In this document: piece by piece, positions 11,317-29,899 of the stretch | Layout of the letters: every line of letters begins with the position of its first letter | Position numbering within the stretch: the first letter of the stretch is position 1 | DNA from: Phycisphaerae bacterium | Lineage (GTDB): Bacteria > Planctomycetota > Phycisphaerae > Sedimentisphaerales > Anaerobacaceae | DNA: 64,000 nucleotides | Assembly: GCA_030604525.1 (NCBI GenBank) | Contig: JAUVVQ010000003.1 | Coordinates: forward strand, 1-64,000 | Direction of reading: 5' to 3' | Made by a program: the position numbers and the translations under genes | The notes under the pieces: generated by a model | Database searches by the model: none | Told to the model about the DNA's origin: nothing | Seen by the model: only the letters and a program-made list of their open reading frames with translations

Positions 11317-11943
11317 ATGGCAGATTTGAAAGCATTAGCAGATGCGATAATCGAAGGTAATCAAAGCAAAGCTGAGGAACTGACGAAGTCTGCTTTAGAG
11401 GAAGGTATGCCGGCTAAAGAAGTTCTCGACAATGGTTTAATCGCGGGGATGGATGTAGTTGGAGAGCGATTCAAGAAAAACGAGGTATATATACCAGAGG
11501 TTTTGATATCTGCCCGTGCGATGAAAGGTGCGATGAGCATACTCGAGCCGGAACTTACTAAGGCAGGGGTAGAACCGATTGGTAAATTCATAATAGGCAC
11601 AGCTCAGGGAGATTTGCACGATATCGGCAAGAACCTTGTGTCAATGATGCTCAAAGGAGCAGGCTTCGAAGTAGTTGACCTCGGAGTAGACGTCTCCGCC
11701 GAGCAGTTTGTAGAGCAGGCGAAGGAAAAAGGTGCACAATTAGTAGGTATGAGCGCCCTTTTGACCACGACAATGCCGGGAATCGAGAAGACACTGAAGG
11801 CGTTGAAAGAAGCAGCTTTGCCAGTGAAGATAATGGTAGGCGGTGCACCGATAACGCAGGCATACGCAGATAAAATCGGAGCTGATGGTTATGCATCAGA
11901 TGCGGCAACAGCGGTAGATGTGGCTAAAGAGCTTATCAGCTAA
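11317..11943 (+). CDS. Methyltransferase cognate corrinoid protein
   Basis: Protein of 208 residues with the two-part fold of MtaC/MtbC/MetH-type corrinoid carriers. A helical cap is at ~1-85 and a Rossmann-like cobalamin domain at ~88-208. The cobalt ligand lies in GDLHDIGKN (His about 101); the SALLTTTMPGI and VGGAPIT motifs that line the nucleotide tail follow. It would shuttle methyl groups between a substrate-specific methyltransferase and a second methyltransferase. Neither partner is adjacent, so the substrate is unknown. RBS GAGGT about 8 bases before ATG. It is closed by a strong terminator. Confidence 0.9.
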   Translation: MADLKALADAIIEGNQSKAEELTKSALEEGMPAKEVLDNGLIAGMDVVGERFKKNEVYIPEVLISARAMKGAMSILEPELTKAGVEPIGKFIIGTAQGDLHDIGKNLVSMMLKGAGFEVVDLGVDVSAEQFVEQAKEKGAQLVGMSALLTTTMPGIEKTLKALKEAALPVKIMVGGAPITQAYADKIGADGYASDAATAVDVAKELIS

Positions 11944-15592: not shown

Positions 15593-15690
15593 GGCCGGGT
15601 CCCATGCAGGCAGGGACCGTGAATCTGGTCAGACGGGGAACCGAGCAGCCATAAGCGTACTCTTTGTCGTGCGTGGATAAACCCGGCCAC
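15593..15690 (+). ncRNA. ffs: Signal recognition particle RNA (small bacterial 4.5S type)
   Basis: The sequence starts ggccgggtccc and closes with aacccggcc, giving a terminal stem. Its apical part has the conserved Ffh-binding core: ggtcag, then acgggg, then accgagcagcc, as in the canonical GGUCAGG...GGAAGCAGCC. The position directly before dnaX-recR is the classical location of ffs. Ends are approximate by a few bases. The RNA scaffolds Ffh and FtsY for co-translational membrane targeting. Confidence 0.9.
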
Positions 15691-15863
15691 TTTGGAATTT
15701 ATTATTTTCGATTTATTATTTTTAATTTATGGTCGGCCTGGGAACATTTCTTAACAATTAAACTTCCCGATAGAGGACAGGTTTGCCTTAATCTAAGAAA
15801 TTGAAAGTTTGCGAGATATTAGTTACTTGAAAAATCATTTGTTTTAGATAATAATCAAGCACT

Positions 15864-24937: not shown

Positions 24938-25693
24938 CTATTCCGTCTTTTGTCCTGCGACGGTCAGGACAAGTGCATAGACTTCTGAAGCACCAGCCTG
25001 TTTTAAGGTTTTTGCACACTCGTTCAGCGTCGCACCGGTGGTTTTTACATCGTCGATGAGACAGATACTTTTGCCTTCAAAAGAATGTCCCTTTCTAACG
25101 GCAAAAGCGTCAGCGACATTTCGCGCACGGGCAGCAGGGCCGGTCATTCCCGCCTGTGATTTGGTATAGCGAATTCGAACAAGGTCGGTGTTGATTTGAG
25201 CAGTTGGGTGGTTCAGCTTTTTTGCGATAATCGCTGCCTGATTATAGCCGCGCCAAAAACGTCGGAGCCAGTGGAGAGGAACGGGGACGATATAATCAAC
25301 CGTTTCGTAAAAAGGGAAACTCTGGAAAGAAGAATTGGCTAAGAAAGCGAGGAAATTTTTTAGTTCTGTTTTGCCATTTTTGAAAGCTAAAATCATTCTT
25401 CGCAAAGAATCCTTATAGAGACCACATCTTGCAATGCTGTCGAAGTAAAAAACTTCTCCCTGGCAATCGGGGCAGCCGGTTTTTATTAAAGCGTAGGTTC
25501 CTGCATCCCTGCCGCAGCGTGGACAAAACCTGCCTGCGGTACACGAGAGGAGCTGGTCCCAGCAATTTTGGCACAGGCCGTTATCATCTTTTGATATGGC
25601 CTTTGAGCAGTTGCTGCAAACAGCCGGCCAGAGAAGATGGTTCAGAGACTCGAAAAAGAAACAGATAGATTGTTTTAATTGTGCGGTTTTCAC
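24938..25693 (-). CDS. ComF family phosphoribosyltransferase-like protein
   Basis: Protein of 251 residues from a GTG. The N-terminal zinc ribbon has CxxC pairs (CSNC, CQNC, CPRCG, CPDC). The C-terminal PRTase fold carries the VPLHWLRRFWRGYNQAAIIAK motif and the PRPP loop ICLIDDVKTTGATLNECA. ComF is needed for DNA uptake in competent bacteria, where it works on incoming single-stranded DNA with ComFA/DprA. None of these partners is nearby, so a general role in DNA uptake or repair is only inferred. Confidence 0.9.
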   Translation of the reverse strand: MKTAQLKQSICFFFESLNHLLWPAVCSNCSKAISKDDNGLCQNCWDQLLSCTAGRFCPRCGRDAGTYALIKTGCPDCQGEVFYFDSIARCGLYKDSLRRMILAFKNGKTELKNFLAFLANSSFQSFPFYETVDYIVPVPLHWLRRFWRGYNQAAIIAKKLNHPTAQINTDLVRIRYTKSQAGMTGPAARARNVADAFAVRKGHSFEGKSICLIDDVKTTGATLNECAKTLKQAGASEVYALVLTVAGQKTE

Positions 25694-25736: not shown

Positions 25737-26516
25737 TCATTTTAAATCATAGGCGGAGTTGTCTGGTGAGAGGAAACCGAGTTTAACATCGTTTATTTTG
25801 TTGTGGTCTTCGATTCTTTTTTTATGCAATTCTGATGTGCAAATTTTTCTGACGGTTCTTGCGCTTCCGTCTGCGTATGCGACGTTTGTGGCGTTTCCTT
25901 CGTGACGGTAGCCCTGCGTTCCGGCATATCGGTAGGCATCAGGGAAGTTTTCATCGAGTTTTCCGGCCTGAGGTGAGCGCATAAACTTATTTGCACCGCT
26001 TTCGAACTGTCCGTCACCGAAGACGGCACAGCTTGAGGGTTTTCTTACGTTAATAGCTTTTGCGGAATCGGAACCGATTATATCGTTACCTATCTTGACT
26101 TTAGAGCCACCGATATAGCTGGCATTATAGTTGTAGCCGGTATAAGGGTCTCCGGGTGAATTTGCGGTTCCCTTGTAAGACGGACACTGATGTATTCCGG
26201 AGATATTTTTTCCGTACCAAAGAAATCCCGGTTTACATTCTTTAATCCTGCCATTCTCAAAGGTTTTGAAATAGTCCCATTCATAAGTATGTGAGGTGTC
26301 CAGAAAATCCATAAAGAATGCTAAGGGATAGCAACCGTTGTTCTCGGAGATATAGATATTTGCAGCGATTGTCATCTGCCTGAGATTGCTAAGGCATACG
26401 ATAGCCCTTCCCTGCCGGCGGACATTTCCGAGTGCGGGAAGTAATATTCCCATAAGCAGTGAGATTATTGAAATCACCACCAGCAGCTCTATTAACGTAA
26501 AAGCGTCTCTTTTCAT
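25737..26516 (-). CDS. Type II secretion-type pseudopilin (H-X9-DG class)
   Basis: Protein of 259 residues. The prepilin signal KRDAFTLIELLVVISIISLLMG is at 2-24, with cleavage before Phe6 and the conserved Glu at mature position 5. The planctomycete H-X9-DG ending is present: GYRHEGNATNVAYADGSAR near 205-225. Such proteins are very numerous in Planctomycetota. This is the third gene after the cobalamin riboswitch, 12 bases behind the dockerin gene, which suggests co-transcription. RBS AAGGAG lies 4-5 bases before ATG. A surface or periplasmic fibre role is likely. Confidence 0.9.
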   Translation of the reverse strand: MKRDAFTLIELLVVISIISLLMGILLPALGNVRRQGRAIVCLSNLRQMTIAANIYISENNGCYPLAFFMDFLDTSHTYEWDYFKTFENGRIKECKPGFLWYGKNISGIHQCPSYKGTANSPGDPYTGYNYNASYIGGSKVKIGNDIIGSDSAKAINVRKPSSCAVFGDGQFESGANKFMRSPQAGKLDENFPDAYRYAGTQGYRHEGNATNVAYADGSARTVRKICTSELHKKRIEDHNKINDVKLGFLSPDNSAYDLK

Positions 26517-26528
26517 TTTGCTCCTTTT

Positions 26529-27614
26529 TTAGTTGCACTTCCAGGAACAGTAATCCCAGTATTCGGTAAGTATTGCGAAATCTCTAAAATCTATAAAGCC
26601 GTCCTGATAGAGGTCGGCTTCCGCCTGCGGCTCGTTCTGGTCGGTAACCGTGTTCAGCCAATAGTCTGAGAGAGCTTTTAAATCACCGAAAGAGACGATG
26701 CAGTTTTTATTGATGTCACCTGTGGGATATGGGTGCTTATAATCACCACAGGCGGCCACATCTGAGACGGCGTCAATCTCTGGGAGGTTGGAATCCTCCG
26801 TGCTGATTGAAGTGCATTCGATTTTGATGTATTGAATCCATTTTCTGTTTGAGTTGGGGTCGGTCTGGAGGTCATTGAAGTCATTAGGGTCGAGGTCTCT
26901 TAAATCGAATCCGGTCCCGCCAGCGGATTCACCATATTCTTGTGACATTTCTGCAACGGTTGCTCCTTCAAAATTATTGGGGTCGATATTCGGGTCAAAG
27001 GGGATGGTAGGGTTGGTGACTTTTGCCCACCACAAGTTATCCCAACCAGCATAGCCGGTATTCGGGTCGTTGGTATCGTATATTCTGCCGAGCGTCGGTG
27101 CGAAGGAATCGGCGAAAGGCCCGTCATCGAAAGGATACCAGTTGAAGCCATCCTGGCTTACAGAAACTCTGCCGAATTCGGTATTTACGTGTCCGGTTTT
27201 TATTAGGACATTGCAGGGATCCTGGTAATCCCAGTCTTGTCCCGCAAGCGGGTCAACCGCCTGCATAGCATTTCCGAAGATGATAAAGTCGATTCCATAG
27301 GGGTTATTTTCGTCGTCTGCGACTTTGTGATTGAATTTGAGGATTAGGTAACCGTTCCTGCCGATGGTGACAATTTCGGTCGGCAGCCATTGAGGGTAAA
27401 CCGGAACGACCGGTCTGAGCGAGCCGAAATAGTCGGTATCGATTGAAGGTCTTCCGAGAGCTTCATCAGGATAAATGTAGTATCCGGCACCAGTTCCGGC
27501 ATAGTACTCGTAAGAGGTAGCAAAATCATTCGGGTCATAGTTATAAGCGCAGACTGTCACGGGGAGAATTGAAATCAACAATAAAGTTTTTATTTTAAGT
27601 TTTTTCAATATCAT
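26529..27614 (-). CDS. Surface protein with C-terminal dockerin domain, cobalamin-regulated
   Basis: Protein of 361 residues with a signal peptide (about 1-23). The body (~25-290) has GRNGYLILKFNHKVADD, YGIDFIIFGNAMQ and FGRVSVSQDGFNWYPF. This pattern (GYIVLKFDHP, D.IVFGNAF, VEVSQDG.TWYE) also occurs in cell-surface proteins beside BtuB-type cobalamin transporters in Bacteroidota and other phyla. Residues ~295-361 form a type I dockerin with two Ca-binding repeats (GDINKNCIVSFGDLKALSDYW and DLYQDGFIDFRDFAILTEYW). Second gene after the cobalamin riboswitch. I infer a surface cobalamin-capture component docked through its dockerin; direct binding is unproven. Confidence 0.72.
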   Translation of the reverse strand: MILKKLKIKTLLLISILPVTVCAYNYDPNDFATSYEYYAGTGAGYYIYPDEALGRPSIDTDYFGSLRPVVPVYPQWLPTEIVTIGRNGYLILKFNHKVADDENNPYGIDFIIFGNAMQAVDPLAGQDWDYQDPCNVLIKTGHVNTEFGRVSVSQDGFNWYPFDDGPFADSFAPTLGRIYDTNDPNTGYAGWDNLWWAKVTNPTIPFDPNIDPNNFEGATVAEMSQEYGESAGGTGFDLRDLDPNDFNDLQTDPNSNRKWIQYIKIECTSISTEDSNLPEIDAVSDVAACGDYKHPYPTGDINKNCIVSFGDLKALSDYWLNTVTDQNEPQAEADLYQDGFIDFRDFAILTEYWDYCSWKCN

Positions 27615-27661
27615 TTTTTACGGGCGGGGCAAACAGCAGCCCGCCCATATATCGAGACAAG

Positions 27662-28333
27662 TTACTTTATAGACAAAAGTTTTCTTCTCGAAGCTCCAAC
27701 AGCGAAGGAACCAAGGCCAAGCAGTAAGATAGTTGCAGGTTCGGGAACAGGCATCTGTCCCGGCGAACGGATTGGGTTCCAAGCAGCATCGTAGTTAGTC
27801 CAGAGCCAGCAATCCCAGTCGCCGTCGGATAAGGTGCGGTTATCAACACCGGTATTCTGAGACCAGTTTTCGTTATCGGTGCTTCCGTAATAGTGCCATC
27901 CGGTGACGTTGTCCTGGGAATATTGGAATTCGGTGCCTCCGGGATAATCGAAATCGTTTACGAAATGGCTTTCCCATTCACTGTACCAGGTAGCGTCAAC
28001 GACAAGGTTACTCTGAGTGTCAATCGCATCGAGAGCGTCCCAGCCGATTGCTGAACCGTCCCAGTTGTATTCAAAGCTAAAGTGATTATCCAGGTCGAAA
28101 TCGATAACGATTGTGGCGTGATTTTCACCGGAACCTGCTGAATATTCAATGTCGCCGGTGTAAGTTGCGGCATCTGCGACTGCTGCAATTGAAAAAAATA
28201 AGGACAAAATCACACACATCCCAGAAGCCGGTTTTGATTTACTATCAAAGATACGATTTCTAAAACTTTTCGGATTGAGATGCGAATTTTCTACCGGTTT
28301 TTTCCGGTTTGGACAAAAAAGAAACATTTTCAA
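27662..28333 (-). CDS. PEP-CTERM protein with transcobalamin-like (DUF4430-like) body
   Basis: Protein of 223 residues from a TTG at 28333, ideally placed 6 bases after AGGAGG; an ATG two codons in is the alternative. There is a signal peptide (ends AAVADA, about 55) with a long basic leader. The C-terminus is a textbook PEP-CTERM tail: VPEPATILLLGLGSFAVGASRRK. The body has GWDALDAID, SHFVNDFDYPGG, TGWHYY and LSDGDWDCWLW, in the order of the DUF4430/transcobalamin C-terminal-like fold (VLDAL, FV..I, W.YYVNG, L.DGD...W). First gene after the cobalamin riboswitch. Exosortase would cleave and anchor it. Likely a surface B12-binding protein (inference). Confidence 0.75.
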   Translation of the reverse strand: MKMFLFCPNRKKPVENSHLNPKSFRNRIFDSKSKPASGMCVILSLFFSIAAVADAATYTGDIEYSAGSGENHATIVIDFDLDNHFSFEYNWDGSAIGWDALDAIDTQSNLVVDATWYSEWESHFVNDFDYPGGTEFQYSQDNVTGWHYYGSTDNENWSQNTGVDNRTLSDGDWDCWLWTNYDAAWNPIRSPGQMPVPEPATILLLGLGSFAVGASRRKLLSIK

Positions 28334-28380
28334 AATTTACCTCCTTGAGTTTGGCCCGAATCGCGAGACCGATTGGGATA

Positions 28381-28418
28381 ATAAAAAAGCCGCCGTCCCG
28401 CGTAAGGAACGGCGGCTT
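28381..28418 (-). terminator. Riboswitch-controlled intrinsic terminator
   Basis: On the minus strand a 10-bp perfect stem AAGCCGCCGT / ACGGCGGCTT encloses a loop of about 12 bases and is followed by TTTTTTAT. It lies between the cobalamin aptamer and the PEP-CTERM gene start (28333), the position expected for transcriptional attenuation when B12 is plentiful. Confidence 0.9.
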
Positions 28419-28527
28419 GAATACCGCACATCCGAATTCTCAGGAAAGACAGAACTTCACTGGAATTAAATCATCTTCCCTGAGTTTCACCATTACCCTC
28501 GCGCGAGGACACATTTATAGTGAACTA

Positions 28528-28722
28528 AGTACAGGTAGGTTTTCTGACTTGTGTCCTACCGAAAGAAGCCTTCCCATCCTGCATTGTGGATAGTGGCATT
28601 GTTTCTTTCAGATTCCCGAAGATTTCGAGTCGGACACCTACAGCGGCGCGTCCGTTTCGGCTTTTAACCGAATTCCCGTTTTGCTATCCCGAAGCGGAGA
28701 GCTTCGAGGCCTGCAATCAGGT
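28528..28722 (-). promoter_or_regulatory. Cobalamin riboswitch (aptamer)
   Basis: Reading the minus strand, the conserved blocks appear in order: ACGGGAA, GGTTAAAAGCC, the GCGCCGCTGTA box, GGGAA, ATGCCACTATCC (the GCCACTG element), GATGGGAAGGC, then AAGTCAGAAAACCTACCTGTA, the hallmark AGTCAGGAGACCTGCC end. P1 can close between gcagg at ~28716 and cctgt at ~28531. It precedes a strong terminator and three minus-strand genes for PEP-CTERM, dockerin and pseudopilin proteins. No known transporter or biosynthesis gene intervenes. Confidence 0.93.
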
Positions 28723-28948
28723 TATAATATATAAAAGAGCAACCAAAGTTTTTCGATGCAGGTTTAACTTATAGGAAGCAACATCGGTTTTTTCAAGTTA
28801 AAAGTTTTAAAAAAGTACAACTTGCCTTTTAAAGGCCTTAAAAAAGCTGTCAGAGCATTTTTTAGATGCAAAGACGGAGGGTTTTTGTTAACATCCGTTG
28901 TGTTAATTTATCTTGTGCGTATCGGATTTTTTTTGAGAGGTTTGGTTT

Positions 28949-29899
28949 ATGAAGCTTATGACTTACGAGCGGAATGGGTCGATTTCGTGCGGGTTTCTTT
29001 CAGATGAAGGACTGATAGATATACCGAGCTTCTGGCCCGGCCCGAATCCGCCGAGAAGCGTCAAGGAAGTTCTCGTGCGTGGAGAGGAATCTTTAGAAGA
29101 AATCGATAAGATATCAAAGTCCAAAAATACAGTTGCGACGCCGAGGGACAAGGTAAAGGTTCTTGCTCCGATACCCCGTCCCGGGAAGCTGCTGGCGCTT
29201 GCGGGAAATTATACAGAGCATATCGAGGAGGCAAGTTTAAAGAAGGGATTTAAATTAGGTCTGACCGCTTCGAGCAAACAGGAGACGGTGCCGAGGCCAT
29301 TTTTGAAACCGGCGACGACGGTGACAGGTCCGGGTGATACGATACCCTGGCCTGCTTACAGCGAACAGGTTGATTACGAGATTGAGCTTGCGGTGGTGAT
29401 TGGTAAAGCTACCAGATGTGTGAAGCCGGAGGAGGCGATGGAATACGTTGGTGGCTTTACGATATTAAATGATGTTTCAGCACGGAGTGTTACTTTTTCG
29501 CAGGGTCGCAAGGCCCGGCCGTGGGATGAATTTTACGATTGGCTTAATGGAAAATGGGCGGACGGGTTTTGTCCGATGGGTCCCTGGCTTTTAACAACAG
29601 ACGAGGTAAAGGAGGTGCAGAATCTTGAGATGGAGCTGAGCGTAAACGGTCGGGTCCGACAAAAGGCGAACACGTCACAGATGATATTCCCGGTAGCAGA
29701 TGTGGTTTCTTTTTTAAGCTACATTATGACGCTTGAGGCAGGAGACGTTATCGCAACGGGAACTCCAGGGGGCGTGGCTGCTGTTTCCGGGGACTTTCTC
29801 AAAGAAGGTGACTTAATCGAATGCAGGATTGAGAAACTGGGGACTTTGCGCAACCCTCTTGGAGCGCAACCGCAACAGTTTTATAAACCACTGGGATGA
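28949..29899 (+). CDS. Fumarylacetoacetate hydrolase family protein
   Basis: Protein of 316 residues. The N-terminal cap (KLMTYERNGSISCGFL) is followed by the FAH catalytic core: LALAGNYTEHIEEA, PRPFLKPATTVTGPGD, the metal ligands in VDYEIELAVVIG, GGFTILNDVSARS, GPWLLTTDEV and GDVIATGTPGGV near the C-terminus. The family cleaves or decarboxylates 2-oxo acids such as acylpyruvates and hydratase/lyase products of sugar-acid or aromatic breakdown; the substrate is not clear. RBS GAGAGG lies about 8 bases before ATG. It is divergent from the riboswitch operon. Confidence 0.92.
   Translation: MKLMTYERNGSISCGFLSDEGLIDIPSFWPGPNPPRSVKEVLVRGEESLEEIDKISKSKNTVATPRDKVKVLAPIPRPGKLLALAGNYTEHIEEASLKKGFKLGLTASSKQETVPRPFLKPATTVTGPGDTIPWPAYSEQVDYEIELAVVIGKATRCVKPEEAMEYVGGFTILNDVSARSVTFSQGRKARPWDEFYDWLNGKWADGFCPMGPWLLTTDEVKEVQNLEMELSVNGRVRQKANTSQMIFPVADVVSFLSYIMTLEAGDVIATGTPGGVAAVSGDFLKEGDLIECRIEKLGTLRNPLGAQPQQFYKPLG

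Follow-up and report, generated by a model that had tools for sequence, protein, structure and literature searches.

A 64,000-nucleotide stretch of a Phycisphaerae genome (GenBank assembly GCA_030604525.1, contig JAUVVQ010000003.1, positions 1 to 64,000; hereafter the window) carries a cobalamin riboswitch followed on the minus strand by an intrinsic terminator and three co-directional genes, designated P1, P2 and P3 (Table 1). Gaps of 47 nucleotides (P1–P2) and 12 nucleotides (P2–P3) separate the genes. A first-pass annotation, made from the sequence alone, had described a complete cobalamin aptamer, a 10-bp terminator and co-directional genes for a PEP-CTERM protein, a dockerin protein and a pseudopilin; Pfam matches confirmed the identities of the three genes (PF07589, PF00404 and PF07963, respectively).

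The aptamer was recovered on the minus strand with the Rfam covariance model RF00174 over its full length (model positions 1–189), with a score of 69.6 bits (gathering score 31.5; E=4.2e-15). It is the only cobalamin riboswitch detected in the host genome (2.35 Mb, 82% complete). The terminator is present as annotated, except that its stem comprises 13 pairs rather than 10; nine of these are G-C, and TTTTATT follows. Folding of the 151-nucleotide leader gave z=-4.3 relative to shuffled sequences. Such a terminator is the expected OFF switch upon B12 binding, and B12 would turn the operon off. No sigma-70-like promoter that might bypass the terminator was found in a scan covering positions 28200–29000.

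Relatives were surveyed with iterative profiles at 55 riboswitch loci, mostly from one family. P1 was found in 20 of these loci, P2 in 42 and P3 in 41, and the order riboswitch-P1-P2-P3 is conserved. A terminator-like hairpin of similar sequence lies 3' of the riboswitch in 38 of the 55 (0.09% in shuffled controls). Because riboswitch, terminator and genes recur together, as the first-pass annotation had proposed to check for the gene trio, the arrangement is not a product of chance. Other cobalamin riboswitches in the family (loci L115, L117, L127 and L112) lie upstream of nrdD-like genes, metE-like genes, or btuF-like genes with an ATP-binding cassette (ABC) ATPase gene, which look like the classical targets: B12-independent isoenzymes (NrdD, MetE) or BtuF with its ATPase.

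Table 1. Features of the operon within the window
Feature	Positions	Strand	Basis
Cobalamin riboswitch aptamer (RF00174)	28517..28729	-	Covariance-model match, full length
Intrinsic terminator, between aptamer and P1	28387..28418	-	13-pair stem and T-run
P1: signal peptide, transcobalamin-beta/DUF4430-like domain (27770-28165), PEP-CTERM tail	27662..28333	-	PF07589 and predicted fold
P2: signal peptide, BtuH-like domain (about 26733-27551), C-terminal type I dockerin	26529..27614	-	PF00404 and profile comparison
P3: pseudopilin, B12-operon-specific subfamily, tail GFLSPDNSAYDLK	25737..26516	-	PF07963

P1 and P2 and their relatives

Single-protein searches of Pfam, NCBIfam and PDB sequences identified no domain in the bodies of P1 and P2. 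For P2, the dockerin was clear (Dockerin_1, PF00404, E=1.2e-08), and a profile of 33 P2 bodies had one match in the PDB at E<=10, namely the C-terminal part of 8BLW chain B (BtuG1 of Bacteroides thetaiotaomicron; E=1.6e-05), which is a BtuH domain (PMC10404256). This domain was used to gather a comparison set of 80 Bacteroidota btuH loci. Alignment of the P2 and BtuH profiles with hhalign gave a probability of 97.8 (E=1.1e-12, 110 columns); control profiles (reversed BtuH, P3 and P1) gave 0.1–0.7. When 2892 open reading frames of the riboswitch loci were searched with the BtuH hidden Markov model, all 18 matches belonged to the P2 family. Proteins at the same operon position in other members of the class (L300, L301 and L306) act as bridges: their E-values are 1e-31 to 1e-33 against BtuH and 1e-17 to 1e-25 against P2, and the link between P2 and BtuH is therefore transitive. 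Another profile, A3, matched designed ankyrin repeats in the PDB at 2e-04 as well, so its match to BtuG1 is weak on its own; the case is built on profile A2, hhalign and the bridging sequences, not on A3. Judged by these comparisons, the P2 body is a remote homologue of BtuH, which is a surface protein of Bacteroides with proven binding of B12, in keeping with the earlier remark that it resembled surface proteins encoded near BtuB genes. The Asn of its GNA motif is invariant in 50 of 50 aligned sequences, and in 33 of 33 for P2. With the BtuH2 numbering register set by motifs, it appears to be the equivalent of Asn399 of BtuH2, which contacts the phosphate of B12 (PMC8941943).

The P1 tail was identified as PEP-CTERM above the model cut-off (PF07589, E=2.2e-07). 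An AlphaFold 2 model of P1 was of high confidence (predicted local distance difference test (pLDDT) score 95.3, predicted TM-score 0.87). In a Foldseek search of the PDB with this model, the top ten matches, all at probability 1.00, were transcobalamin structures or 3U7Z, which we take to be a DUF4430-type protein, and the eleventh fell to 0.72. TM-scores (query) for the ten were 0.54–0.61, with E-values of 2e-03 to 3e-02. P1 lies below the reach of the Pfam DUF4430 model (PF14478) and gave no match to it. Its family profile aligned end to end and collinearly with a DUF4430 protein (E=6.8e-04, probability 27; controls <=0.1). The predicted fold of P1 thus matches the transcobalamin-beta/DUF4430 type, and the profile alignment agrees with the likeness to DUF4430 and transcobalamin C-terminal folds first noticed from the sequence.

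P1-family relatives occur in 24 of the 80 Bacteroidota btuH loci, mostly as the first gene after btuH with gaps of 3–99 nucleotides, and this btuH-neighbour family aligns with P1 at probability 99.5 (hhalign, E=6.5e-23). The pair of BtuH-like and P1-like proteins therefore recurs in B12 loci of two phyla. P1 could not be shown to be BtuK or BtuL; no P1-like match was among those listed in Bacteroides loci L176, L177 and L168. At five Bacteroidota loci (L191, L199, L202, L208 and L231) a further P1-like domain is attached to long repeat proteins directly after btuB-btuG-btuH-P1, an association of which we found no description as far as our search went. Among 198 class genomes, the only DUF4430 match (L242, 237-1317, minus strand) lies ahead of a gene for a membrane protein resembling a small-molecule uptake component.

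The same 198 genomes were used to count associations, and only genomes with a located riboswitch were counted. Within 3.5 kb downstream of the riboswitch and on the same strand lay P1 in 34 of 37 cases, P2 in 46 of 49 and DUF4465 in 21 of 23. DUF4465 occupies the P1 slot, ahead of P2 and P3, in sister genera (L143, L145, L146 and L147). It is an established B12-binding family that includes a protein of Mucisphaera calidilacus (PMC13398666), itself a member of the Phycisphaerae (PMC8882080). Unlike these sister genomes with their DUF4465/BtuJ-type binders (PMC12751083, PMC13398666), the host genome has no match to DUF4465 (PF14717), either in P1 or P2 or elsewhere. At four loci (L074, L075, L121 and L124) a single polypeptide contains both the P1 and the P2 domain.

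In other relatives the binder slot holds a PQQ_2-type propeller (L123, 1845-3386; L128, 2025-3665; L144, 4900-6432; L294; L297), which carries a dockerin in those scanned and is accompanied by a different P3 tail. It is possibly a further B12-binding family. An assignment of these propellers as BtuG-like was rejected; they are PQQ_2/BamB-like instead. At L291 and L293, PEP-CTERM proteins of 378–408 residues lie between riboswitch and P3 without matching the P1, P2 or BtuH profiles, and these are candidates for new binders.

P3 and the outer-membrane step

P3 has the prepilin N-terminal methylation motif (N_methyl, PF07963, E=1e-06) with an invariant Glu5, and the RH...DG motif of the planctomycete DUF1559/H-X9-DG pseudopilins. 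Class genomes encode dozens of pseudopilin candidates each. Nevertheless, in 94 of 109 testable genomes, that is, those with a located riboswitch, the top-scoring match to this profile of P3 lay 0.15–3.7 kb downstream of the B12 riboswitch; most of these genomes gave no sequence to the profile. By these searches P3 is the class-wide constant partner of the riboswitch, and it differs from other DUF1559/H-X9-DG pseudopilins in forming a subfamily linked to B12 riboswitches, whose tails are specific to the binder. Three tail types were recognized: GFLSPDNSAYDL[EK] with P1/P2, GWFEP.DNS.FDL with DUF4465 and a shorter type of P2, and IGSVG.N.PHYVPDY with the dockerin-bearing PQQ-type propeller. Note that this correspondence was judged by eye; the class loci examined for the bridging proteins largely agree with it. 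P3 was not found in the 80 Bacteroidota btuH loci.

A BtuB-like gene was found in 66 of the 80 Bacteroidota btuH loci versus none of 80 operon loci from the class (763 kb), and no BtuG-type gene was found in the latter either. Outside the operon locus, the host genome encodes one TonB receptor (L235) that is weakly BtuB-like (E=9.7e-07). The first-pass annotation had suggested that a cohesin and BtuB be sought elsewhere in the genome; this receptor is what was found of the second, and of the first, no match to PF00963 was obtained in the 82%-complete genome. Docking through the P2 dockerin, as then proposed, is unsupported because no cohesin was found; in addition, the P2 C-terminus varies among relatives, being a dockerin, a PEP-CTERM tail or neither. 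Elsewhere in the genome, a cluster of adjacent btuF-, btuC- and btuD-type genes (G000:C82, L234; FecCD E=2.9e-91, Peripla_BP_2 E=1.1e-34) encodes a candidate cobamide transporter of the host, and none of the transporter genes of this genome has a detected riboswitch.

Proposed role of the operon

The operon is probably a B12-starvation system that captures cobamides at the cell surface, a role that the first-pass annotation had already suggested and that is retained here as the most likely one, without the cohesin docking. With plentiful cobamide, the riboswitch would favour the terminator and the operon would be off; with scarce cobamide, P1, P2 and P3 would be produced. P1 and P2 would be exported and both would bind B12, with the PEP-CTERM tail anchoring P1 on the cell exterior. 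The two may even be halves of one clamp around a single B12, since their domains are fused in relatives and, in transcobalamin, B12 is enclosed by a pair of domains (PMC1796856). P3 would be a dedicated pseudopilin serving the binders, either by transferring them across the outer membrane in the manner of type II secretion or by displaying them on a fibre. Once captured, the vitamin would pass into the periplasm and on to a transporter of the BtuF-BtuC-BtuD type encoded elsewhere.

Several observations weigh against this proposal. The best Foldseek E-value for P1 is only 2.3e-03, with TM-scores of 0.55–0.6, and the P1 profile had no significant match among PDB sequences. In P2, the equivalents of BtuH2 Gln333, Trp577 and Leu578 are not conserved, Asn399 alone being fully kept among the contacts that could be placed. 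Foldseek with the P2 model (AlphaFold pLDDT 91) returned only weak discoidin/CBM32-like matches and was uninformative, and BtuH2 was not among the 50 matches listed. BtuK2 and BtuL, encoded in B12 operons of B. thetaiotaomicron, did not bind cobalamin (PMC12751083); operon membership alone is therefore no proof of binding. P3, finally, could be a generic pseudopilin kept by synteny.

Alternative readings differ mainly in what they ask of P3. Under one, P3 is an export helper only: a minor pseudopilin of a type II secretion-like machine with P1 and P2 as cargo, and B12 enters through the TonB receptor. The tip pseudopilins of such machines touch their cargo, binder and P3 subtype switch together, and a TonB receptor gene is present in the genome; against it, the PEP-CTERM tail of P1 implies another anchoring route. 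This reading is a serious possibility that falls somewhat short of even. It is less probable, and on balance unlikely, that P3 builds or tips a pilus-like fibre with the B12 binders that delivers the vitamin to the outer membrane and across it, as a substitute for TonB-dependent BtuB. The class-wide association of P3 with the riboswitch, the tails that vary with binder type and the contrast in BtuB-like genes between the class and Bacteroidota loci speak for such a fibre, as does the binding of dextran by pili-like fibres of planctomycetes (PMC5394234), but one pseudopilin does not make a fibre and the lone, weakly BtuB-like TonB receptor could be the B12 gate. Sequence is compatible with P3 as export helper, as fibre presenter or as neither.

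Two further readings leave less for B12 to do. Such genomes commonly encode PEP-CTERM proteins, dockerins and DUF1559-like pseudopilins, with dozens of P3 paralogues in each, and the three genes could encode ordinary surface or biofilm proteins that are B12-repressed by happenstance and do not bind the vitamin. The homology of P2 to BtuH, the occurrence of P1 relatives next to btuH in a second phylum and the replacement by DUF4465 make this improbable. Least probable of all is that the riboswitch governs P1 alone while P2 and P3 have their own promoter: one B12 operon of B. thetaiotaomicron does have an internal promoter (PMC12751083), yet the intergenic gaps here are short, the order from riboswitch to P3 is conserved, and the scan of positions 28200–29000 showed no sigma-70-like site.

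The proposed surface capture by the operon products can be set beside known systems. BtuH, as in the H domain of BtuG1, is likewise exported and encoded in B12-riboswitch loci, is homologous to the P2 body and shares the GNA-motif Asn with it. It differs in being a lipoprotein of a btuB-btuG operon, whereas P2 ends in a dockerin or, among certain relatives, in a PEP-CTERM tail, has neither a btuB nor a btuG homologue close by, and lacks equivalents of three BtuH2 contacts. The outer-membrane step that BtuH serves is performed by BtuB-BtuG transporters (PMC10404256); at the class loci the pseudopilin stands in their place. P1 resembles the beta-domain of transcobalamin and intrinsic factor and DUF4430, members of the transcobalamin-like clade of the SLBB superfamily (PMC1796856), but it has no alpha/alpha toroid partner, being paired with a BtuH-like domain instead, and it bears a PEP-CTERM tail. 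Burroughs et al. (2007) had placed planctomycete proteins in this clade and predicted B12 scavenging (PMC1796856).

What is new is the combination and the pseudopilin, the binders being relatives of known kinds. No literature linking BtuH to planctomycetes, or a B12 riboswitch to pseudopilins in the sense meant here, was found in a search that left out most subscription journals, which is not proof of absence. One candidate precedent (PMC12530212) was rejected, as PEP-CTERM and a cobalamin riboswitch co-occur there by coincidence only.

B12 is scarce and most microbes must capture it; most of the surface binders known come from gut Bacteroidetes and pass the vitamin to BtuB. In the operons described here, modules of the BtuH-like and transcobalamin-like kinds occur together, in some cases fused, across a class that belongs to a different phylum, and a pseudopilin is their constant partner, which suggests an undescribed way of collecting B12 for a whole bacterial class. 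The arrangement also points to possible functions of several protein families that lack annotation and provides a bacterial counterpart of the human transcobalamin beta-domain, and it turns the passage of B12 across the outer membrane of these bacteria into a directly testable question. In its broadest form the proposal would be a pseudopilin-based surface apparatus doing the outer-membrane work of BtuB/BtuG throughout the class, with exchangeable modules (BtuH-like, transcobalamin-beta-like, DUF4465 and PQQ-type propeller), each with its own subtype of one B12-repressed pseudopilin, and with a transcobalamin-like P1-P2 clamp in some members; so extended, it is speculative and rather unlikely to hold as a whole.

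Neighbouring features

A ComF-like phosphoribosyltransferase gene (24938-25693, minus strand) begins 43 nucleotides past P3, and one also lies 3' of P3 in many related loci (L062, L076, L123, L128, L130, L295 and L297); the gene may belong to the transcript repressed by B12. The host genome encodes several corrinoid-protein domains, one of them within the window, in a corrinoid-binding protein (11317-11943, plus strand; PF02310, E=9.5e-31) that is a likely user of captured B12. The window also contains a bacterial small signal recognition particle RNA (15593-15691, plus strand; RF00169, 63.2 bits).

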